Positions 18,340-30,819 of a stretch of 64,000 nt of DNA are shown piece after piece. Under the pieces are notes generated by a model. The model was not told the DNA's origin and did not search any database. It saw only the letters and a list, made by a program, of their open reading frames with translations. Each line of letters starts with the position of its first letter. The first letter of the stretch is position 1. The translations under genes were made by a program, and so were the position numbers. Source of the DNA: an uncultured Isosphaeraceae bacterium (GTDB taxonomy: Bacteria; Planctomycetota; Planctomycetia; Isosphaerales; Isosphaeraceae); the NCBI GenBank assembly GCA_945957605.1, contig CAMFLR010000014.1, positions 1 through 64,000 on the forward strand. Direction: 5' to 3'.

Positions 18340-21300
18340 TTACTTCGGTTTGCTCGCGTTCGGCGCCGGCGCGTGCAGGGCCGATGTGTCCTTGAGCGTT
18401 TCAAGGTAAGCGATCAAATCCGCGAAGTCGCCTGCCGTCAAACCTTCCGCCAGGCCATTCGGCATCAGCGAAACCTCGCTCTGCTTGCGGCCGTCGAGAT
18501 CGGTCTTGAGCACCTTGATCCGCTTCGCGTCGACGTCTTCGATCTCGATCGCTTCGGGCGTTTCCGACTTCAAGATGCCCGTGAGCACCTTACCGTCGGC
18601 CGTCGCCAGCACAACAGGTTCATAACCCGACGAAATCTTCTGAGAGGGCAAAAGCACCGACGTGATGATTTCCTCACGCGGGTACTTCAACCCAACCGCC
18701 GAAAGCTCGGGACCAACCTGTCCCCCCTTGCCTGCCACCGCGTGGCACTTGATACACGCAACGCCCTTGAGGTCGTTGAACAGTTCCTTGCCATGCTCGG
18801 CCTTCCCCTTGCCGGCCATGGCGGTTTTGCGGAACTGGTCGGCATTGAATCCGCCGGCGTCGTTCCCCTTCAGGAACGCATATTCGCCGTCGGTCCCGGT
18901 GATTCCGACCGAAAAAGCCCACGGTCCGCCGGTGTTGCCGCAGCGGACGAGCACCCGGTTCACACCTTTGTTGAGATTCACCTCAACCGAATCAACCTCG
19001 GGCGTGAAGCCGCGGTTCGTATCGAAGCGATAGACCGACTTGCCGTTGAGCCAAACGGTCAGCGTGTCGTCCGAACCCACCGCCATCCGCGCCTGACGCG
19101 CCATCGGCGAGTTGATCTCGGCATAAGCGAAGACCGACTTGTTATCGATCTCATTGAGCAACTTCGTGACATCGACCTGTCCGTGCTCGTCAACTACTTT
19201 CGTTTCACGCCACTCGATCGGTTTCTTGTCGCCGATGGTCACGGGCTTGGTCACGTCGATCTTGCCATTCGTCGCAAATGGCGGTCGGCCGCGTTCCGCG
19301 AACGGACCAACGATGTGCCATTTCATGATCGGCTGCACCGCGGAAAACACCTTGCGAAGCTCGGGCAAAGCGGCCGAAGGCAGTTCCTTGCGCTTGTGCA
19401 GTTCTTCGAGAATCGGCAACGCTTTCTCACGAACCGCAATCATCGCCGAGGTTGAAGCCTTGCGCAGTTCGGGGCTCTTCTCGCCCAGACCGCGAAGGTA
19501 AACGTGAATCGCGCGAATGTCGGGCATTGCGCCGAGAGCTGTCGTCGCTTCGAACCGCACGTTTTCATCATTCGCCGAGTCGATGAGCAGCGGAATCGCC
19601 TCGCGATCGCGAAGAGATCCAAGCGCCACGACAGACGCCTTACGAACATCGACCGACGCATCCTTCAAGCGATCGCGAACAGCCGAAGACACCTTGGTAT
19701 CGCCAATCAATCCCAGCGCCTCGGCAGCACTCGCGCGAACCTTGGCGTCGCTGCTTCCCAGCGCTTTGACGATCGCCGGAACCGCGCCGCGAGCCTTCGC
19801 CCGACCCAGCGCCGCAATCACGCGCACCTGGCGATCGGCCTTCAAATTGGCCTCGCCCAGCAGCTCGACGAGTGCCTTCGTCGCATCGCTGCCGCCGATC
19901 TTCTCGACGCTCGCAAGTGCCGCTTCACGCAAGCTATCGGCCGACTTCGCATCGCGAAGCGCACCAATCAGAAGCGGCAAGGATGCCTTATCCTCAAGCG
20001 TTCCCAGGCTGACGACGATTTCCTTGCGAACGGCGTCCGACGTCTCGCGTGTGAACTGCTCGCGCAGCTTCGCGAACGTCGCTTTGTCATTCATCTCGCG
20101 AAGCGCCGAGACCGCCGCGAGCCGGATCGCCTCATTCGCATCGGCCAAACCAGCCAGCACGGTGTCGCCAACAAGCGTGGTGCCATCCCACGACACAACC
20201 TTCTCGGGCGGCTTGCCGGCGGCCGGACGCGTCCCCCACCAGTTGCCATCCCAGGGACGCGCCTTCATGTAAGCTTCCGCCAGAAATGCATAGGCCTTGC
20301 TGCGTTCCTCGACCGGCCGCGATGCATCGCTCGCGACCGACTTGAGCAATCCCACCGCATCAACGTCATACTGATCTTCGAGCGCGCCAAGAATTTCCTT
20401 GCGGATCTTGGCGTCGGTCGAAGGCGAAATACCCGCAGCCGTGGCTTTCCAATCGTTGATGCGACGCAGCGCAACGCGTCCTGCAAACGCGACGTAACGA
20501 TCGCTATCGACAACCGTGTGGATCAATGCCGGAATCGCGCGAGCATCTTTGATGCGCCCCAGCGAGATGATCGCCTGCAACCGCACGGTGGGATCGCTGT
20601 CCTTTACCGCGGCGATCAACGGCTCAACTGCCGCCGTCACACCACGCAGGCCAATCGTTCGTGCGGCCTGGGCGCGGAGGTCGGGAACCGGCGACTTAAG
20701 CATCTCGACCAGCACCGCATTCGCTTCTGGCTTGCCGCCAGCAATGCCGTCGAGTGTCCAGATCAGGTGCCGCTTGGCGACGTCGTCGGTTTTCGAGTCT
20801 TTGAGTGCGGCAACTACGGGAGCGAGTGCCTCGTTCCCCTTCTTGATCAGCGCCGTTTGCGCTCGCATCCGTTCGTTGAACGACGCGTGCGAGAGCGACT
20901 TGATCTGCGCGGGAATCGGGTCGCTATCGTTGCCGCGAGGCTTGGCGTCGCTGGGGCCAACGTATGTCACCGCATAAATCTTGCCGACCTTTTCGGTCTT
21001 GTTCGACCAGCCGCCCATGCCCCAGTCGGCCACATAGAGCGTTTTGCCGTCGTACGAGAGCGTGAGGTCGAGCGGATTGATGCTCTCCCCTTCGCCGGGC
21101 TCGAGGAACTTCATGTAGTCGACAACCTTGTAGCTCGCACCTTCGGGCGCGAACTTGATCGCCGCGACATGCCGCTTGCCCCACTCGGCCCAGAAGGCTC
21201 GGCCGCGATATTCCGCCGGCCAAACGTCTTCCTTGTACAAAATCCCGCCGCATGGCGAACCGCCGCCATATTCGGCCAGACGCGGCAGGTGCTTGTCGTT

Positions 21301-22068
21301 GCGGTCGTGGTAGTCGAACGGATAGCCGAAATAGCCGCCGTCCATGTGGTGCGTCACCCGCGTCCACCAGCCGAGGCCATCGTCGGTATTATCGTACGTG
21401 AACATATTATCGCGCTCATCAAGATTCACTTCAAGATGATTACGTGTACCAGACGTATAAACCTCAATCCCCGTGCCATCGGGACGGCAGCGCATCGTGC
21501 CGCCGCCCTTGAGCTGGGCGTACCGGCCGTCGTTACCGTGGACGCCGTGAACGCCCTTGTCGCCGACTGAGATATAGAGCCAGCCGTCCATGCCGAACTG
21601 AATGCCCGAGACGATGTGGTCGTTAAAACCATGCGGGCCTTTGCCGAGATCCTTGAAGATATCCTTGCGCGAATCGGCCTTGCCGTCGCCGTTGGTGTCG
21701 CGGAGCACGGTCAGGCGCGGCATGTTCATCACATAGAGCGCACCGTCGTGCCAGGCCATACCGAAGATCGGCCGAAAACCTTCGGCGAAAACGACCGGCT
21801 CTTTCCCTTCGCGGAACAGGAGGATCCGTCCGTCGTCGGTGTCATATGGGCCGATCTGGTCCATCGGATCTTCCGCGACAAACAGCGAGCCGTCGGGCGC
21901 GGTGGCAACTTGGCTCGGATAAGTCACAGCCGGAACGGCGGCGACGAGTCGAACCTTGAAGCCATTTGGCACTTTCGGAAGTGCGAAAAGCGTGGCCGGA
22001 AACGCGGCGAGACCGAATGTCGCGGCGAGAGCCCAGACCAAGGCCCTCCGTGCGGGAGCGATCCTCAT
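18340..22068 (-). CDS. PVC-type dehydrogenase/HEAT-repeat/cytochrome c protein
   Basis: 1242 aa with an N-terminal signal peptide (LVWALAATFGLAAFPATLFA). Order: a six-bladed sugar-dehydrogenase-like propeller (~35-370; LYISVGDKGVHGVHGNDG, SGTRNHLEVNLDERDNMFTYD); about 500 residues of HEAT-like helical repeats (many DxxVRxxA-type units); a small beta segment with FAYAEINSPMARQARMAVG (a PA14-like ligand fold is possible); and a C-terminal cytochrome c with one CIKCH heme site. This multi-domain layout is characteristic of Planctomycetes/Verrucomicrobia and is thought to oxidise sugars or alcohols in the periplasm; the substrate is not known. A paralogue lies at 23355. Confidence 0.92.
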   Translation of the reverse strand: MRIAPARRALVWALAATFGLAAFPATLFALPKVPNGFKVRLVAAVPAVTYPSQVATAPDGSLFVAEDPMDQIGPYDTDDGRILLFREGKEPVVFAEGFRPIFGMAWHDGALYVMNMPRLTVLRDTNGDGKADSRKDIFKDLGKGPHGFNDHIVSGIQFGMDGWLYISVGDKGVHGVHGNDGRYAQLKGGGTMRCRPDGTGIEVYTSGTRNHLEVNLDERDNMFTYDNTDDGLGWWTRVTHHMDGGYFGYPFDYHDRNDKHLPRLAEYGGGSPCGGILYKEDVWPAEYRGRAFWAEWGKRHVAAIKFAPEGASYKVVDYMKFLEPGEGESINPLDLTLSYDGKTLYVADWGMGGWSNKTEKVGKIYAVTYVGPSDAKPRGNDSDPIPAQIKSLSHASFNERMRAQTALIKKGNEALAPVVAALKDSKTDDVAKRHLIWTLDGIAGGKPEANAVLVEMLKSPVPDLRAQAARTIGLRGVTAAVEPLIAAVKDSDPTVRLQAIISLGRIKDARAIPALIHTVVDSDRYVAFAGRVALRRINDWKATAAGISPSTDAKIRKEILGALEDQYDVDAVGLLKSVASDASRPVEERSKAYAFLAEAYMKARPWDGNWWGTRPAAGKPPEKVVSWDGTTLVGDTVLAGLADANEAIRLAAVSALREMNDKATFAKLREQFTRETSDAVRKEIVVSLGTLEDKASLPLLIGALRDAKSADSLREAALASVEKIGGSDATKALVELLGEANLKADRQVRVIAALGRAKARGAVPAIVKALGSSDAKVRASAAEALGLIGDTKVSSAVRDRLKDASVDVRKASVVALGSLRDREAIPLLIDSANDENVRFEATTALGAMPDIRAIHVYLRGLGEKSPELRKASTSAMIAVREKALPILEELHKRKELPSAALPELRKVFSAVQPIMKWHIVGPFAERGRPPFATNGKIDVTKPVTIGDKKPIEWRETKVVDEHGQVDVTKLLNEIDNKSVFAYAEINSPMARQARMAVGSDDTLTVWLNGKSVYRFDTNRGFTPEVDSVEVNLNKGVNRVLVRCGNTGGPWAFSVGITGTDGEYAFLKGNDAGGFNADQFRKTAMAGKGKAEHGKELFNDLKGVACIKCHAVAGKGGQVGPELSAVGLKYPREEIITSVLLPSQKISSGYEPVVLATADGKVLTGILKSETPEAIEIEDVDAKRIKVLKTDLDGRKQSEVSLMPNGLAEGLTAGDFADLIAYLETLKDTSALHAPAPNASKPK

Positions 22069-22222
22069 GGAAGTCGGTTCCGTTCAAGAGAAGTTCAGCC
22101 GGTATGCTCAACGAGGCATAAGGAGGGAAGCACGCGTGCGACTCCATAGGAATCGGCATGCATGCTCTGTGCGCGAGCCTTCAGAATCGTAGCCGAAAGC
22201 GGTGTCGGCTTTCAACTGACGC

Positions 22223-23056
22223 TTATCTTCGCGTCTTGGCGCGAACCCAGGCAGCGGGAGCAATCGCCGCGACGAGCCACGTCGCGCCGAGGTAAAACAA
22301 GACTTGCGACCGCGCGAGCATCCCCAGAATCGCGAGCCCAATGCCGACGATTCCCATGATTCGCCAGGGGCGCAAACGAACACTCTGCCGGAAGATCATC
22401 CAGAGAATCCGCCGGCCGTCACGAAACGCGCGGAGCTTGCTAACAGTCCCCTCAATTCGGGGATGATACGGCACCGGTACTTCAACAACCTTCATCCCCC
22501 GCGCCACCGCTTCGCTCGCCAATTCGGTCTCGATCTCAAAGCCGCCAGACCGCAACTTTACTTCGTTCAAGAAATGTGGAGAGAAGACGCGATAGCCTGA
22601 AAGCAAATCGCTATTTCCCGGCCCGATCAGCACGTAAAACGCAGCAGGAATGAGCAGATTCCCCACGCCGCGAACAAACGACATCGCCCCCTGAGCGGCG
22701 ACGGGCCGACGCGCACCGACAGCCATATCCGCCTTGCCTTCGAGCACTGGCGTTAACAGGCCAGAAATGCGATCGGCGGGATAAGTGCCGTCGCCATCGG
22801 TCAAAATCACGGCCGGCCGATCGCCGAGCGTGGCGAAAATCGCCTGAACCGCGTGACCTTTCCCCTGCGCCGTCACAGATACAACGCGCACGCCAAGTGC
22901 CTGCGCCCGCATCGCGGTGTCATCAGTCGAGTTGTTATCAAAAACGACAATTTCGCCGTCGGGCAACGCTTGACGCCAGGCCTGAATCACAGCGTCGATC
23001 GCCGCGGCTTCGTTGTAGCAGGGAATGGCGACAGCCACGGGCAGAGGGGAATTCAT
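22223..23056 (-). CDS. Family 2 glycosyltransferase (DPM1-like) with C-terminal membrane helices
   Basis: 277 aa. GT-A fold: VAVAIPCYNEAAAID, VVFDNNSTDDT, and the metal-binding DxD as LTDGDGTYPAD. The acceptor region is VEVPVPYHPRIEGTVSKLRAFRDG. Two membrane helices end the protein (MGIVGIGLAILGML, VLFYLGATWLVAAIAP). It resembles polyprenyl-phosphate sugar synthases that make undecaprenyl-linked donors for GT39/GT-C enzymes such as the one at 47051, although the two are not adjacent. Confidence 0.9.
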   Translation of the reverse strand: MNSPLPVAVAIPCYNEAAAIDAVIQAWRQALPDGEIVVFDNNSTDDTAMRAQALGVRVVSVTAQGKGHAVQAIFATLGDRPAVILTDGDGTYPADRISGLLTPVLEGKADMAVGARRPVAAQGAMSFVRGVGNLLIPAAFYVLIGPGNSDLLSGYRVFSPHFLNEVKLRSGGFEIETELASEAVARGMKVVEVPVPYHPRIEGTVSKLRAFRDGRRILWMIFRQSVRLRPWRIMGIVGIGLAILGMLARSQVLFYLGATWLVAAIAPAAWVRAKTRR

Positions 23057-23196
23057 GAGACATTCAAGCCCGAGGAAAGCGTTCGCTCCGGCCCAATCCC
23101 TTATGACTGGACCGGAGCGATACGATGTCGCGAAACGTCAGTTCAACACAACCACATAAGAAGTTACGCAACTGACAGTGGAGACGAAAAGGTATG

Positions 23197-23312
23197 GGGT
23201 GGCCGGGACAACTTCGTTGTCCCGGTCGCGAAGCGACAAAAGGAGATGGCAAAACGTTCCACTTCCCCTCTTATGGCTGCTCCACCTGGACAACAAGTTG
23301 TCCAGGCCACCC
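23197..23312. repeat. Palindromic interspersed repeat, family B (GGGTGGCC)
   Basis: The left unit starts GGGTGGCC and contains GGGACAACttcGTTGTCCC. The right unit contains CTGGACAACAAGTTGTCCAG and ends GGCCACCC. The whole pair is an imperfect inverted repeat of ~116 bp between two minus-strand genes. It differs in sequence from families A and C but shares the paired-palindrome layout. The remaining 23057-23354 has no gene. Confidence 0.75.
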
Positions 23313-23354
23313 GATGCAATCCACTCCATGACACCAACCGCGTGCTCCTTCAAA

Positions 23355-26300
23355 TCAACGGAAATCAATCGCCTTGGGAGCGACGATTGTCGTCACCAAA
23401 CCACCCTCAGCGCCGCCGTGAACCATCAGCACGAGGTGGTTTTCTCCCTTATTCAGGGTGATTTCCCCCGAGTTCGGCCCACCGTTCTCGCTCTTGAGTT
23501 CGACCGGCTTGCCGTTGAGGGTCGCGACCACCTTTGCCTTGGTATCAACCACCAGCTTCGCCTTCGTCGTCTCGCCCGCGACCGGGTTGACGACGAGATA
23601 GCCGACGCGATCCTTGTCGTCACCGGCGATCGTCTTGAGCGAAACCTGCCCCTCGGCATCGGCATTGATGGGATGATAATTGAAGGCTGCGGCCGCGTCG
23701 CTGGGAACGACCTTCGGCGCGACGAGATACTTGCCCACAATGCTCACTGGCTGGCGAAGTGTCGTCAGGAATGTGAGCAGGTCGATGAGATCCTGGTCGC
23801 TCATCGTCTGCGCCAGCCCCTCCGGCATCAACGAGACTTCGCTCTGCTTACGATCCTCAATCGCATTCGTAGGCACGTTAACGCGCTGGCCCTCCGCCGT
23901 CTTGATCACGAGCCGATCGGGCGCCTCTTCAACGAGCAGCCCCGTCACGACGCGCCCATCATTCAGCGCGATCACCTGCGAGCGGAAGTTGTAACCAATC
24001 GCAGCACTCGGATTGAGGATCGACTGAATCAGTTCGGCCTTGCCGTCCTTCGCGCCAATCGTTGACAGGTCGGGGCCAATCCAGTTCCCCTGCCCCTGTA
24101 CCCGGTGGCAAGAAGCACACGCGTTGGCACCGCTGCGGAAGAAAACCTGACGGCCCTTCTCTGCATTCCCCTCCGCCCGCACGAGCATGAAAATCGGCGG
24201 CACCGAGCGTCCGTTCGCCATCTTGGGCAGCGGCAAAACCTGTGCGGCTTCCTCACGCACGCGACGATCGGTATCGCGATGCACGAGCGTCGTCGCCTCA
24301 GTCTTCAGGTCTTCCGGCAGCTTGCCTTCGCGTGCGAGAGCGATCACCTTGAGACCGCCATTGTTCAAGCGGCCATAAGTCCGAAGTGCCTCGCGACGCA
24401 GGCCGACCGGGTAATCCTTCGCGGTGATGATCGACGTCAGCGTTGCAGCTGCGTCGCGAACCGATGGCAACGTGCGAAGCGCCGCGTCGGCGAGCGGGTT
24501 CGACGTCCCCTTCCCCTTGGCGGAGAGAATCAGACCGTCGAGGAATTCAGCCGTCTTGGGCGGCTTGATCTGACCGACGGCCTCCACCGCCGCGACCCGG
24601 CTATCGTTGTCGACCTTACTGTCGTTCACGAACGCCATCAGCGTGGAACCATAGCGACTATCGCGCGTCGCAGCCGCGGCAGTGATACCAGCGACTCGCT
24701 GCGCCGGATCTTTGAGCGCGGCTTCGATCACGTCGACCACTTCCTTGCTGCTTCGCGCGTCTTTCCAGTCGCCGCCGATCTTGCGCGAGAGCGTCGCCAG
24801 GAGTTGTCCCTTACGCGTGGGATCGGTCGCCTGGGAAATGAGCTCGGCCAGAACGATCGCCGCACTCTTATCAGTGAATTGCTTCAAAACATCGTCGGCG
24901 GCTTGCTTGAGCTCAGCCGCTTCGAGGCTGGGCAAGATCCGACCAATGAGTCTGAGTGCCTCGGCACGATGTAGTCGCCAGGCGAGCCCGAGCGTCTTGC
25001 CGAGAGCATTCGACGACAGGTCGGGCGTTCCCGTCTTGATGTAAGCCTCATTGCGATCGGCCGGGAAGTACGGCGGAACGGCGATCGAGCCGTCCTTGCC
25101 GGTTTCTGACAGGTTCAAATCACCGTACAAATTGCCGTCGAAGAGGCGGATCATCATTTCGGGTTCGCGACCATCGAGCGCCAGTCCCAGCGCTTCGAGA
25201 TACCAGCGATCCTGGCCGTCCCAAAGGCTCGCGAGCGTTATGAGTGCGTCGCCAGCGACCTTTGTTGGAACATCCTGAAGCGCGAGGATCAATTCGCGGC
25301 GCACGCCTGGATCGGGATCGTTTGCGAGCGGAGCGAGGTGAACGAAATTCGCTTCACCACGAAGTGGCTTGTTGACCTCGTCCTTCGAGAGCGTGACGTT
25401 ACCATTGCGGCTGACGTCTCGGCCAAGGATGCGAACGGCGAGTTCACGTACTGCGGGATCGCTCGACTTGAGCATTGGGTAGATAGCGTTATCGCCTTGA
25501 ATGGCGTGCAGGACAAAACAAGCCCTTGCGGCCGCCCATTTTGTCTGGGGTGAGGCGACATGAGTCCCCCCCGCACCAGTGCTGACGCGGCCGCCGAGCA
25601 TATACTGACTGAGTAAATTCCCAAGAACGTTCTCGGTCAACGCCTTATCCGCTGCGAGTGCGATCAGCACCTCTCGCGCGGCAAAGCGGGTCGCGACGTT
25701 CGCCGAGCCGAGGGCATTCGCCAAATCATGAATCTTCTGTTCATCAGCCTTTGAATCAGCCAGCGGCGACTTAACCGACGCGGGCTTGTTGCCAGTCGGC
25801 GCGACACGATAAATCCGCCCCGTCGTCTGGTCGCGGAACGCATGCCCGCCAACGCCACCGTCATACCAATCGGCAACAAACACCGCGCCGTCTGGAGCAA
25901 CCGTCACATCAACCGGCCGGAACCACTGGTCGTCGCTCGCGAGCAGAACCTTGTGCTCGGTGCGAAACTCAGCCTTGTGACGTTCGACCGGGAAGTAATT
26001 GATCACCCGAGGACCGGCTTCGGCTTCGAGAAGCGCTCCCTGGAATTCCTTGGGTAGCAAATTCCCTTCATAAACCGCAAGGCCGCACGGGCTGCCGTTA
26101 CCAGTGCCGACAAGCTTGGGAATCGGCCCCGGCGTGTCTTCGCCCCAGTGCCGAGCCGAGCCAGGTGTGCGGTAGCCGTAGTGGCCGCCTTCCATCACCC
26201 AGATCACCCGGCTGCCACGGTTGCCGTCGTCGTCGTTGTCGGACGTGAAAATGTTGCCGAAGGCGTTGAGCGCGGTTTCGTAGTTGTTCCGCTGGCGGTC

Positions 26301-27053
26301 GGCGAGAATCTCGAACTGCGTGCCGTCGCGATTCACTCGCAAGGTGTTCGCAAGCTGATCCGACGAAACGTGCCGGCCCGACTTGTCGACGACGTCAAAA
26401 TTCTGCACCCGCTCCGACTTGTCCTGCTGAACCGAGCAGCAACCGTCGCCGTGGGTGAAGTACAGCTTGCCGTCGATGCCAAGCACCATGCCGTGGACGC
26501 CGTGGTCGGAGTCGATGCCGCCGAAGCCGGTGAGCAGCGGATAACGCTTGTCGGCCTTGTCGTCGCCGTCGGTGTCTTCGAGCACGAGGATGTCGGGGCT
26601 GTTGCCAACGTAAACCTTCGAGCCTAAATACTTTCCGTCCTTACTCCACTTCTCTTCGAGGGCCAGTCCCATCGGTACGGGAAAGACCTTGTCGGCAAAG
26701 ACGGTCATCTTATCGGCCTTGCCGTCGCCGTCGGTGTCTTCGAGAATCTTGATCTTGTCCGCTTCCTCATTCCGCTTGAACTGCCGGTTTCCACCACGCG
26801 AGAGGCGATAGTTCAGCCCTTCGGTGATCCAAACCCGGCCGCGCGAGTCGATATCCATCGTCGTCGGGTTGACGACCATCGGCTCCGACGCCCAGAGCTT
26901 GGCTTCGAGCCCTTCGGCCGGTTTGAGCATCTTGGCCGACTGTTCGGCAGTGACCTGCGCAACCGCGCTGCCCACCCAGGAAAGCGAAAGAATGCCGATG
27001 CCCACAATCGCCCGCACGGCGACCTGGGTACGCGGCTGCGACAAGATCAACAT
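23355..27053 (-). CDS. PVC-type dehydrogenase/HEAT-repeat/cytochrome c protein (paralogue of 18340)
   Basis: 1232 aa from the ATG at 27053 (AGAGGAG 6 nt upstream). The signal peptide is VGIGILSLSWVGSAVAQ. It has the same order of domains as the 18340 gene: a propeller with calcium-like loops (LEDTDGDGKADKM, DSDHGVHGMVLGIDGKLYF), HEAT-like repeats, cytochrome c with one CASCH site, then ~130 extra C-terminal residues forming a small beta domain (VKVVATLNGKPVEL-like strands, LVLMVHGGAEGG). The two paralogues share the post-heme phrase DRKQSEVSLMPEGLAQ / GRKQSEVSLMPNGLAE. Predicted periplasmic; substrate unknown. Confidence 0.92.
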   Translation of the reverse strand: MLILSQPRTQVAVRAIVGIGILSLSWVGSAVAQVTAEQSAKMLKPAEGLEAKLWASEPMVVNPTTMDIDSRGRVWITEGLNYRLSRGGNRQFKRNEEADKIKILEDTDGDGKADKMTVFADKVFPVPMGLALEEKWSKDGKYLGSKVYVGNSPDILVLEDTDGDDKADKRYPLLTGFGGIDSDHGVHGMVLGIDGKLYFTHGDGCCSVQQDKSERVQNFDVVDKSGRHVSSDQLANTLRVNRDGTQFEILADRQRNNYETALNAFGNIFTSDNDDDGNRGSRVIWVMEGGHYGYRTPGSARHWGEDTPGPIPKLVGTGNGSPCGLAVYEGNLLPKEFQGALLEAEAGPRVINYFPVERHKAEFRTEHKVLLASDDQWFRPVDVTVAPDGAVFVADWYDGGVGGHAFRDQTTGRIYRVAPTGNKPASVKSPLADSKADEQKIHDLANALGSANVATRFAAREVLIALAADKALTENVLGNLLSQYMLGGRVSTGAGGTHVASPQTKWAAARACFVLHAIQGDNAIYPMLKSSDPAVRELAVRILGRDVSRNGNVTLSKDEVNKPLRGEANFVHLAPLANDPDPGVRRELILALQDVPTKVAGDALITLASLWDGQDRWYLEALGLALDGREPEMMIRLFDGNLYGDLNLSETGKDGSIAVPPYFPADRNEAYIKTGTPDLSSNALGKTLGLAWRLHRAEALRLIGRILPSLEAAELKQAADDVLKQFTDKSAAIVLAELISQATDPTRKGQLLATLSRKIGGDWKDARSSKEVVDVIEAALKDPAQRVAGITAAAATRDSRYGSTLMAFVNDSKVDNDSRVAAVEAVGQIKPPKTAEFLDGLILSAKGKGTSNPLADAALRTLPSVRDAAATLTSIITAKDYPVGLRREALRTYGRLNNGGLKVIALAREGKLPEDLKTEATTLVHRDTDRRVREEAAQVLPLPKMANGRSVPPIFMLVRAEGNAEKGRQVFFRSGANACASCHRVQGQGNWIGPDLSTIGAKDGKAELIQSILNPSAAIGYNFRSQVIALNDGRVVTGLLVEEAPDRLVIKTAEGQRVNVPTNAIEDRKQSEVSLMPEGLAQTMSDQDLIDLLTFLTTLRQPVSIVGKYLVAPKVVPSDAAAAFNYHPINADAEGQVSLKTIAGDDKDRVGYLVVNPVAGETTKAKLVVDTKAKVVATLNGKPVELKSENGGPNSGEITLNKGENHLVLMVHGGAEGGLVTTIVAPKAIDFR

Positions 27054-27291
27054 CAGGAACTCCTCTGGCTGGGACGATCGGCGGTCTCGAGGCGGCGTCG
27101 TTTTTGCATGTCGAATGAGAAAAAGGGGCTTCCCTTCCCTCGGGCCAACATTGTGTCGCGCCAAAGTGCCGCCGTCCAGACGCCTGACCGAACGACCTGG
27201 GCGTTGCGAACGTATTGACAGCACAGGAAAATGACGGCAAATACTCCGAAAACGGATCTATAAGTCCGTTATCGCGCTGAGGCTCATTGCC

Positions 27292-28455: not shown

Positions 28456-28599
28456 TCGAAAGTGAAACTGAGTCCAACAGTGATTGCGGTTGGCTTTTTT
28501 GGCATAATCAACGAATAGCGCAACGGTTCGATACGACTCGATCGTGCTTCTGCAAAACCAGGTGATGAGAGACCTCTGCGCTAGATGGGAGCGTTTGCA

Positions 28600-28857
28600 A
28601 TGACGGTAAACATAACGCTTCCTGATTCGATGAAAAACTTCATCGAAACGGAAGCTGCGAATGCAGGTTTTGCGTCAATCGATGAATATCTTGCATCGGT
28701 GATTTCTGAGCTTCAACAGCGAAAAGCGATGGAAGAGCTCGAGGCCAAGCTGTTGGCCGCGATGGAGGGCCCCTTTGTCGAAGTGACTCCAGATTTTTGG
28801 GATTCAGTCCGCTGTAAAGGTAAGCAGATCGCAGCCGAGAAGCAGAGTCAACCGTGA
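28600..28857 (+). CDS. ParD/CopG-like antitoxin
   Basis: 85 aa from the ATG at 28600 (GGGAG about 9 nt upstream). The ribbon-helix-helix start MTVNITLPDSMKNFIETEA is typical of ParD-like antitoxins that bind operator DNA as dimers. The C-terminal part (LEAKLLAAMEGPFVEVT) would wrap the toxin. The stop overlaps the toxin start by 4 nt (GTGA), the classic arrangement. Base composition is lower in GC than the surroundings, suggesting acquisition. Confidence 0.85.
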   Translation: MTVNITLPDSMKNFIETEAANAGFASIDEYLASVISELQQRKAMEELEAKLLAAMEGPFVEVTPDFWDSVRCKGKQIAAEKQSQP

Positions 28858-29210
28858 GCCAAGGAATTCGCGTATCTTTAGATGCTGAGGATGACTTAGT
28901 CTCGATTTATGAACGCCTTCAAAGAGAAGCAAGCGAGACAATCGCGGATCGATTTGTCGTGGTTGCGAACAAAGAGTTTCTGCGACTGGCAAAAATGCCG
29001 GGAATTGGAGTCAAGTTTCAGAGTGGAAATCCACATGCTTCTAGAATTCGCTTTACCGCGTTACCAACACGATTTAAGGCCTATTTAGTATTCTACAGGC
29101 CAATCGATGATGGGATCGAAATTCTACGCGTGCTATATGGAGCACGGGATATTCCAAACGTTCTTGCATCGCTCTTAAACGCCAATTTCACTCCTCCCGA
29201 CGAAGTTTAG
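28854..29210 (+). CDS. ParE/RelE-superfamily toxin
   Basis: 118 aa from the GTG at 28854. It has the pattern of the RelE/ParE fold: an N-terminal helical hairpin (AEDDLVSIYERLQREASE), then strands with KMPGIGVKFQSGNP, FKAYLVFYRPIDDGIEILRVLYGARD. The last phrase is characteristic of ParE-like toxins (a GxRD or GARD turn). Such toxins poison gyrase or cut mRNA; which applies here cannot be told. It converges on the retron reverse transcriptase, with 58 nt between the two stops. Confidence 0.85.
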   Translation: MSQGIRVSLDAEDDLVSIYERLQREASETIADRFVVVANKEFLRLAKMPGIGVKFQSGNPHASRIRFTALPTRFKAYLVFYRPIDDGIEILRVLYGARDIPNVLASLLNANFTPPDEV

Positions 29211-29268: not shown

Positions 29269-30579
29269 TCAGCCTTCTCCGACCCAACAGATCTGTTCAA
29301 ACAATCCCTTGAGGCGATCTCCTCTCCCTGGATTCAGCGAATTCACATAAGAAACACGTCCCTTCAAATGCTGGCGAAAATCCACCACACGCTCCCGATT
29401 CTGACTCTCCGGCCCGAACTTCACACAGTTATGTAACGTCGCCTTGAGGCGATCATATTCATCCCGCGCAATGTTCGGCCACTCGTTGATCACCACGCCT
29501 GCCACGCGCTGGCGAATCGACGATCGCATCACACGCGTTTTGCGTGGCTGGATCGCAAATCCCTCCTCGAGCGCGATCGCCATGACATGAATCACGAAGC
29601 GATCGGCCCCGCGTGCAAATGAGTCGTCGCCGGAAAATGCCAGGTCGTCGGCGTATCGTGTATAAACCCCGCCCGAAGCAGCCGCGAGTCCTGCCAGCCG
29701 CATATCGAGTCGGAACGCGCAGAGATTCGCAAGCGCGGGGGACGTCGGCGCGCCTTGAGGCAGGTGCGCCTCCTCATATTTTCGCGTATCGAACTGACGG
29801 GACAAATCGCGACCACGAAATTCGCCTCGTGAAATGCGATTTGTCGTCAGACCTGCCAGAGTTCGTGCCACATCTTCGGGATAGCCGGCTCGCATGAAGA
29901 GTGAGCGCACGCGTGCCGCAGTGATCGACGGGAAGAAGTCCTGAATGTCGAGTTTGATGACCACACGCTTGCAGACGTGCGGCTCGACGTAACTTCGCAC
30001 CGAACGTCCTGGCCGAAATCCGTGGGCCGCGTCGTGCGGCGGAATTTGCATCAGTATCGAGCGCAAGACTTCGCGTTGGGCATAGCGCAATGTTCCGCAA
30101 GGTGCCTCGATCACCCGCACACCGCCGTGACGCTTGGGAACAAACCGAACTTGATAGCGCGGATGTGCAGACTCGGTTTGATGCGACTCGTAACCGCCGC
30201 AATCCGCCAGCCAGTCGAGCGCGAGCAGTCCAAGACCTAACCGTTCCGCCAGTGCAGAGACTTCGACAATTTCGGGGACGTTCCACGCCATGGGGAGCGT
30301 CGCCGCTGGCCACATCAAGGGCTTGGTGGGCTCGGGAATGTCTCGCCGAAAGAAACGCGTCCTGCCAGTCACAGTCTCATGAAACGGCGGATCGTTCCAA
30401 AGAAAGCTCGTTACGCGATGGCGAAGCGGACGAGTTTTCCAGCCGAGTGTGTTCATCATTCGGACAATGAACGCGTCGAGTCCCTTCCACGGCCGCTTGA
30501 ATAGCCTTGTCACGCACGCCCGGAGATCGGTGTCGCGCCACCGACCGGCGACCATCTCACCGGCGAGAAAGTCGCACAT
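29269..30579 (-). CDS. Retron-type reverse transcriptase with N-terminal extension
   Basis: 436 aa from the ATG at 30579, my preferred start; an 80-codon upstream open frame begins with TTG inside the -35 box and runs through the msr-msd RNA, so it cannot be the start. A GTG at 30642 and a CTG inside the a2 arm are less likely. Residues ~1-110 form an extension. The RT domain has FVPKRHGGVRVIEAP (~147-160), AAHGFRPGRS (motif 1-2 region), VVIKLDIQDFFPSI, LPQGAPTSP (~273-281), YTRYADDLAFSG (YADD ~309-312) and QRVAGVVINEW, in the position of the retron VTG motif (here VAG). It reverse-transcribes the adjacent RNA into msDNA. Myxobacterial retron RTs such as Mx162 share a long N-terminal extension, as I recall. 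Confidence 0.92.
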   Translation of the reverse strand: MCDFLAGEMVAGRWRDTDLRACVTRLFKRPWKGLDAFIVRMMNTLGWKTRPLRHRVTSFLWNDPPFHETVTGRTRFFRRDIPEPTKPLMWPAATLPMAWNVPEIVEVSALAERLGLGLLALDWLADCGGYESHQTESAHPRYQVRFVPKRHGGVRVIEAPCGTLRYAQREVLRSILMQIPPHDAAHGFRPGRSVRSYVEPHVCKRVVIKLDIQDFFPSITAARVRSLFMRAGYPEDVARTLAGLTTNRISRGEFRGRDLSRQFDTRKYEEAHLPQGAPTSPALANLCAFRLDMRLAGLAAASGGVYTRYADDLAFSGDDSFARGADRFVIHVMAIALEEGFAIQPRKTRVMRSSIRQRVAGVVINEWPNIARDEYDRLKATLHNCVKFGPESQNRERVVDFRQHLKGRVSYVNSLNPGRGDRLKGLFEQICWVGEG

Positions 30580-30603
30580 CTCCCAAGGTTCGTCGGGGTC
30601 AAT

Positions 30604-30784
30604 TGTGAACAGCGGCGGCCTCCAACCTATCTCATTCGGCACGTAGCGACGTACGCGCAGCGTACCATCTCTACGTGCTTTCTTCTGGCGTGGTGAGGCG
30701 TTCCCCCGGGGTAACCCCGGAGAGGTAGTTGGGCCGGTTTGTGACCGCCGTTCTACCCGCTTGGATCGACCGCCGCTGAACACA
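30604..30784 (-). ncRNA. Retron msr-msd RNA gene
   Basis: The minus-strand transcript would start at about 30784 and ends in a 17-nt inverted repeat: a1 at 30784-30768 and a2 at 30620-30604, with 14 Watson-Crick pairs, one G-U and two mismatches. Inside, in transcript order: AAGCGGG (possible branch-G region), an msr hairpin GGCGGTCACAAACCGGCC (30749-30732), an 8-bp hairpin CTCCGGGG/CCCCGGGG (30722-30704), then an msd region closed by GCCTC/GAGGC (30699-30695 with 30622-30618). The msd hairpin pairs GCACGTAG/CTACGTGC (30678-30671, 30646-30639) and GTACGC/GCGTAC inside. The layout and position directly before the RT match known retrons. Confidence 0.85.
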
Positions 30785-30790
30785 CCATTT

Positions 30791-30819
30791 ACGTTAGAAA
30801 CGCCACAGCACGGTGTCAA
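30791..30819 (-). promoter_or_regulatory. Promoter of the retron operon
   Basis: TTGACA at 30819-30814 and TAACGT at 30796-30791, 17-nt spacer. Transcription from it would start near 30784, exactly at the outer end of the a1 arm. It shows that the apparent 516-codon RT frame, starting at 30819, is not the true RT start. Confidence 0.8.

Follow-up and report, generated by a model that had tools for sequence, protein, structure and literature searches.

We describe here a locus of an uncultured Isosphaeraceae bacterium that very probably constitutes a complete two-component retron, composed of a non-coding RNA and a reverse transcriptase (RT), with a predicted msDNA of about 65–78 nt and no separate effector. 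The window, i.e. the whole stretch of DNA that was analysed, comprises 64,000 nt of contig CAMFLR010000014.1 (assembly GCA_945957605.1). The elements lie on its minus strand between positions 29269 and 30819, where a TTGACA-N17-TAACGT promoter is followed by an RNA of about 180 nt and a retron-type RT gene. A first-pass annotation had proposed a complete retron candidate in a planctomycete with these three elements in this order; all three were found as proposed, and the candidate is supported by RNA covariation, by the placement of the RT and by the promoter, the msDNA being a prediction. Beyond that annotation, the analysis adds the wider family, the actual start of the RT, its N-terminal domain, the missing effector and the proximity to myxobacterial retrons. 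The features of the locus are the following:

30791–30819, minus strand: sigma-70-like promoter (TTGACA at 30819–30814, 17-nt spacer, TAACGT at 30796–30791; the hexamers also occur in homologues)
30608–30781, minus strand: msr-msd non-coding RNA (extent of the model match; covariance model R1, covariation and fold)
30761–30783, minus strand: a1 arm, pairs with a2 (compensatory changes in homologues)
30760, minus strand: predicted priming (branch) guanosine in CCAAGC, assigned by analogy (unpaired; G in 97% of 70 RNAs, right after the a1 helix)
30724–30757, minus strand: msr hairpin 1 (fold; covarying pairs of helix 3)
30704–30722, minus strand: msr hairpin 2, 8-bp stem and 3-nt loop, CUCCGGGG-UUA-CCCCGGGG (helix 4)
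30626–30703, minus strand: predicted msd template, placed by analogy relative to a2 (end point inferred)
30639–30678, minus strand: msd hairpin (helices 5 and 6 covary)
30605–30625, minus strand: a2 arm, pairs with a1 (compensatory changes in homologues)
29269–30579, minus strand: retron-type RT, 436 aa, ATG start, stop included (Pfam RVT_1, PADLOC, AlphaFold2)
30367–30579, minus strand: family-specific N-terminal five-helix domain of the RT, residues 1–71 (own profile; pLDDT 86.5 when modelled alone)

The RNA folds with −89.9 kcal/mol (z = −5.0 versus dinucleotide shuffles). Its a1/a2 helix consists of five inner pairs (TCCAA/TTGGA), a 2-nt bulge, 11 pairs including one G-U, a 2x2 internal loop and three outer pairs, so that the previously noted helix holds, while the 17-nt length with 14 pairs plus one G-U given for it turned out somewhat too short. 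By an alignment-free search, inverted a1/a2 repeats of differing sequence and with the same span of approximately 170–180 nt were detected upstream of related RTs. In an alignment of 12 RNAs, both partners vary in 18 pairs, and none of 500 shuffles reached this count or the covariation score. Upon extension to 70 RNAs, both partners vary in 40 of 43 pairs, 94.4% of the cells pair, and the covariation score amounts to 0.58 compared with 0.07–0.10 for slid controls; the 12-RNA test is nevertheless the cleaner one, because the larger alignment was fitted to the covariance model. Arms that do not covary had been named in the first-pass annotation as evidence against a retron, and the arms covary in both alignments. 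The fold and the covariation in homologues also bear out the two msr-like hairpins and the long msd-like hairpin read from the window at the outset. Msr hairpin 2 is the best-conserved part of the RNA, with helix 4 paired in 98.9% of the cells. The msd region, formerly placed at 30618–30699, was corrected to approximately 30626 to 30690–30703. G30626 is expected to be copied first, this position being occupied by G in 97% of the 70 aligned RNAs, and by analogy the cDNA should begin opposite this base and end at about 30690–30703 (65–78 nt).

The covariance model R1 was built from the 12-RNA alignment and matches the window RNA, itself one of the training sequences, with 137.7 bits. Directly upstream of the RT, R1 finds the RNA in 74 of 80 GTDB homologues (E < 1e-4, RT strand), 72 of which lie outside the training set, L053 and L068 being copies of training loci. 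Homologues with both RNA and RT were found in Planctomycetota, Acidobacteriota, Verrucomicrobiota, Pseudomonadota, Actinomycetota and Myxococcota. R1 also recovers the RNA next to the RT at the non-training loci L007, L016–L018 and L019–L025 and on Burkholderia and Tsukamurella plasmids. When 59 related genomes were searched with R1, the strong matches adjoined an RT, one per genome and two in G052, in addition to a single orphan. This orphan copy (L251:3150-3329, corresponding to G034:C43:41149-41328) scores 71 bits, has a worn a1/a2 helix and is not accompanied by an RT. In Rfam, the RNA was without a match, both for the window at the gathering threshold and for five loci up to E = 1.

The TTGACA-N17-TAACGT promoter claimed initially is present. 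When the 55 nt ahead of the RNA were scored for hexamer pairs, 43 of 83 loci reached 8 or more of 12 matching positions, far more than in 200 rounds of shuffling (mean 7.8, maximum 14), and about half of the homologues resemble the window in promoter placement. Since the TTGAC starts in homologues cluster about 28–38 nt ahead of the start of the RNA model, transcription would start at a1. For the window, the inferred transcription start at approximately 30784 agrees with the earlier claim that it falls on the a1 end, located at 30783. Together, the covariation in homologues and the promoter statistics exclude a chance arrangement.

The RT had been read as an open reading frame covering 29269–30819. 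The upstream part of this frame is read-through of the RNA, and we assign the start to the ATG at 30579, because most homologues start 5–30 nt past a2. The YADD and LPQGAPTSP motifs highlighted before are both intact. Two motif deviations weigh against the retron reading. Region X reads DAAH (residues 183–186), with A and H kept and N replaced; the motif NAxxH is found in 14 of 16 validated retron RTs, and Mx65 and Ec48 differ at the N (PMC6868368). Region Y of the window RT starts with VAG (residues 359–361), family members have VAG or VTG, and VTG stands at this place in 14 of 16 validated retron RTs. Among the PADLOC profiles, the window RT scores 473 bits with RT_other, 446 with RT_outgroup and 316 with RT_XIII. 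The best retron model of NCBIfam yields 182 bits, less than the cut-off that this model sets for the St85 family, versus 52 for group II. Retron RTs are also on top of the sequence matches in the PDB. An AlphaFold2 model (pLDDT 93, 41-row alignment) was compared with solved structures by Foldseek and VIA-align, and Ec86, Eco2, Ec78/Eco7, Eco8 and Ec83 ranked first with Z 26.5 to 20.4. The top match, Ec86, has Z 26.5 across 299 aligned residues; group II and DGR enzymes reached Z of about 18. An RT outside the retrons, for example from a group II intron or a DGR, had been listed as contrary evidence, and profiles, tree and structures alike group this RT with retrons; PADLOC, NCBIfam, the PDB and Foldseek/VIA each place retron RTs ahead of group II, DGR and DRT enzymes.

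It is very unlikely that the RNA is the template of another RT system, namely a class 2 DRT (DRT2, DRT9, DRT10), that produces repeat or homopolymer DNA instead of msDNA. Such systems likewise pair an RT with a non-coding RNA (PMC12483538, PMC12632851). However, the RT profiles, the structure and the tree point to retrons, the DRT2 and DRT9 structures rank far lower, and an a1/a2 helix flanked by a conserved G is the layout of a retron and argues against a DRT template.

In a tree calculated by a quick method, the RT family forms one clade (SH-aLRT 99) far from group II, and the adjoining group contains Mx65, Mx162 and the second retron RT of the host. The family is a clade of its own, sister to the RTs of Mx65 and Mx162. 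The second retron-type RT of the host (G000:C9:191862-192824; L002, L252), of about 554 aa, clusters with Mx162 and with RTs from other planctomycetes, and the R1 RNA is absent beside it.

Myxobacterial retrons were the first kind of retron to be discovered. Myxococcus genomes contain several classes of retron RT, and we recognised the Mx65 and Mx162 copies from the length of the RT, 427 and 485 aa, and from their GAGC and CAGC motifs, not by name: the 427-aa RT goes with GAGC, and the RT of 485 aa, which we take to be the length of the Mx162 RT, is situated behind a long hairpin and CAGC. The GAGC and CAGC loci agree with the descriptions of Mx65 and Mx162 (PMC6868368), and the coordinates of the Mx65 RT give 427 aa (PMC8934634). 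Mx65 (Retron-Mxa2) and Mx162 (Retron-Mxa1), assigned to RT_XIII in PADLOC, are the nearest characterised RTs, with identities of 44% and 36%, respectively. The window locus shares with them an N-terminal extension of the RT, an RNA upstream of the RT and a predicted priming G adjoining a1, and with Mx65 in addition the substituted asparagine of region X, as reported (PMC6868368). In contrast to both, its RT belongs to a separate clade, and its best profiles are RT_other and RT_outgroup instead of RT_XIII, whereas the Mx65-like and Mx162-like RTs score higher with RT_XIII than with RT_other (the reverse of the 316 vs 473 bits of the window RT); moreover, its N-terminal domain is without detectable relation to theirs. 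R1 had no match at the Mx65 or Mx162 loci. A third Myxococcus retron lineage (L223–L233, L214, L215), present in many genomes, has an RT of about 442 aa that is approximately 50% identical and an R1-type RNA. These RTs were considered as Mx65 itself, which we rejected, as the genomes concerned carry Mx65- and Mx162-type RTs at loci of their own; some Myxococcus genomes combine Mx65-like, Mx162-like and R1-family loci.

Homologous RTs were detected by protein search in 40 of the 59 related genomes, approximately 17 of which also share the N-terminal part. Viral contigs and phage records contained distant RTs only, with an identity of at most 40%. We regard it as very unlikely that the window copy is the decaying remnant of a former retron and no longer works. 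Compared with its near sisters, the window RT sits on the longest terminal branch (0.9 vs 0.3–0.7), which makes a relaxed constraint possible; the family is distributed patchily over the relatives, one of which has an orphan RNA with no RT. The window copy, however, has an uninterrupted RT frame, its catalytic residues, every RNA helix and an undamaged promoter.

The extent of the retron unit was delimited by comparing 11 related loci with different flanks. Between unrelated contexts, DNA similarity runs from the promoter or RNA start to the RT stop codon, as exemplified by L032 and L038, which are similar at positions 3–1504 with the RT ending at 1503; a few same-genus pairs also share flanks through synteny. 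Clustering of open reading frames of at least 90 aa from about 100 loci revealed no gene family that recurs across distant hosts except the RT and its shadow frames. Apparent neighbour families recurring at 81, 41 and 39 loci proved to be mostly shadow frames overlapping the RT. Since conservation ends at the RT stop and no neighbour recurs, the unit consists of the RNA and the RT without a separate effector, in contrast to the well-studied defence retrons, and the short gap between RNA and RT along with the sharp end of conservation leaves no room for an effector of less than 90 aa. A conserved gene resembling membrane proteins, without a Pfam family, is located downstream of the RT in L107, L108, L111, L113 and L120, which stem from planctomycetes of another family. 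This gene was rejected as an effector, as further genomes from that family have it at a distance from the RT.

In the window, the retron is surrounded by genes of housekeeping type, encoding an HtrA protease, HEAT/cytochrome-c proteins, a glycosyltransferase, PpiC, an acyltransferase and an epimerase, and by a ParDE pair. A conventional tripartite retron with the neighbouring ParDE or the HtrA-like protease as effector is extremely unlikely. ParDE (28585–29210) adjoins the RT, and in PADLOC the HtrA gene resembles the trypsin-like domain of type XI retrons, but neither recurs near homologous RTs, both are encoded on the strand opposite to the RT, and the conserved DNA stops at the RT stop codon. 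The ParD/ParE-type toxin-antitoxin pair, on the plus strand and convergent with the RT, is not conserved with the retron.

Current retron models assume a toxin that is held in check by the RT and the msDNA. For the effector-free retron proposed here, the sequences show transcription signals, selection on the RNA fold, an intact RT and a near-obligate pairing of RNA and RT. By analogy with known retrons, the RT would bind the msr, probably gripping it at the 8-bp/3-nt hairpin, and would prime from the 2'-OH of G30760, a role taken from validated retrons (PMC6868368). Copying of the msd would then begin at G30626, run across the hairpin and stop at approximately 30690–30703, and RNase H would remove the template, giving an RNA-linked ssDNA of about 65–78 nt that stays bound to the RT. 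Most likely, although we state this with low confidence, the RT–msDNA particle would be the working part by means of its helical N-terminal domain, for instance by docking or releasing a host protein once phage or DNA damage disturbs the msDNA. It is also possible that the msDNA acts on host DNA-binding proteins or that a toxin is encoded elsewhere.

The N-terminal domain could itself be a built-in effector. Its profile matches family members beyond the training set (e.g. L003 with 83 bits), and no match was obtained in Mx65, Mx162, other retrons or the L019–L024 (sub2) branch. No Pfam family was assigned to the domain, Foldseek returned nothing below E = 3 for the domain alone, and the best fold match in a second look (Z 5.9) lies within the background of helical bundles. 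Only tentatively do we suggest that the locus represents a widespread effector-free lineage in which the RT–msDNA particle is the functional unit and the five-helix domain a built-in sensor or effector module, a reading we consider somewhat less probable than an even chance.

As RT_other (PDLC02949) and RT_outgroup (PDLC03740) are the best profiles for the window RT and its relatives, this RT group is already in the PADLOC database as retron-like; in the copy used, no retron type, RNA or effector is attached to these profiles. The RT group is therefore known as untyped and retron-like, and the RNA is new relative to Rfam and may have been described earlier. Retron-Eco1 (Ec86, type II-A) is the best match among solved structures, and the 8-bp/3-nt msr hairpin is of the kind bound by the Eco1 RT (PMC6868368); unlike the window retron, Ec86 works with an effector of its own and has no such N-terminal domain. 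By its published description, Retron-Bth1 makes RT-DNA with an unclassified RT and no obvious effector (PMC12548924), but differs in being disrupted by a group II intron. The combination of RNA and RT is an effector-less variant of retrons and not a separate kind of system. RNA and RT are jointly conserved as the sole parts of the unit in six or more phyla, and the RT is a sister lineage to the myxobacterial retron RTs; this joint conservation without other parts makes the role of effector-less retrons directly testable. The RNA family model and about 100 loci from varied hosts furthermore provide a resource for msDNA production and editing tools.

Two further observations concern the surroundings of such loci. 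In genome G010 (L036:6556-7815; also L007), a TnpB-like gene of about 1.26 kb occupies precisely the interval that separates the retron RNA from the RT, and G027, a relative of G010, has the empty site. In the window, two large HEAT-repeat/DUF7133/cytochrome-c proteins are encoded on the minus strand at positions 18340–27224.
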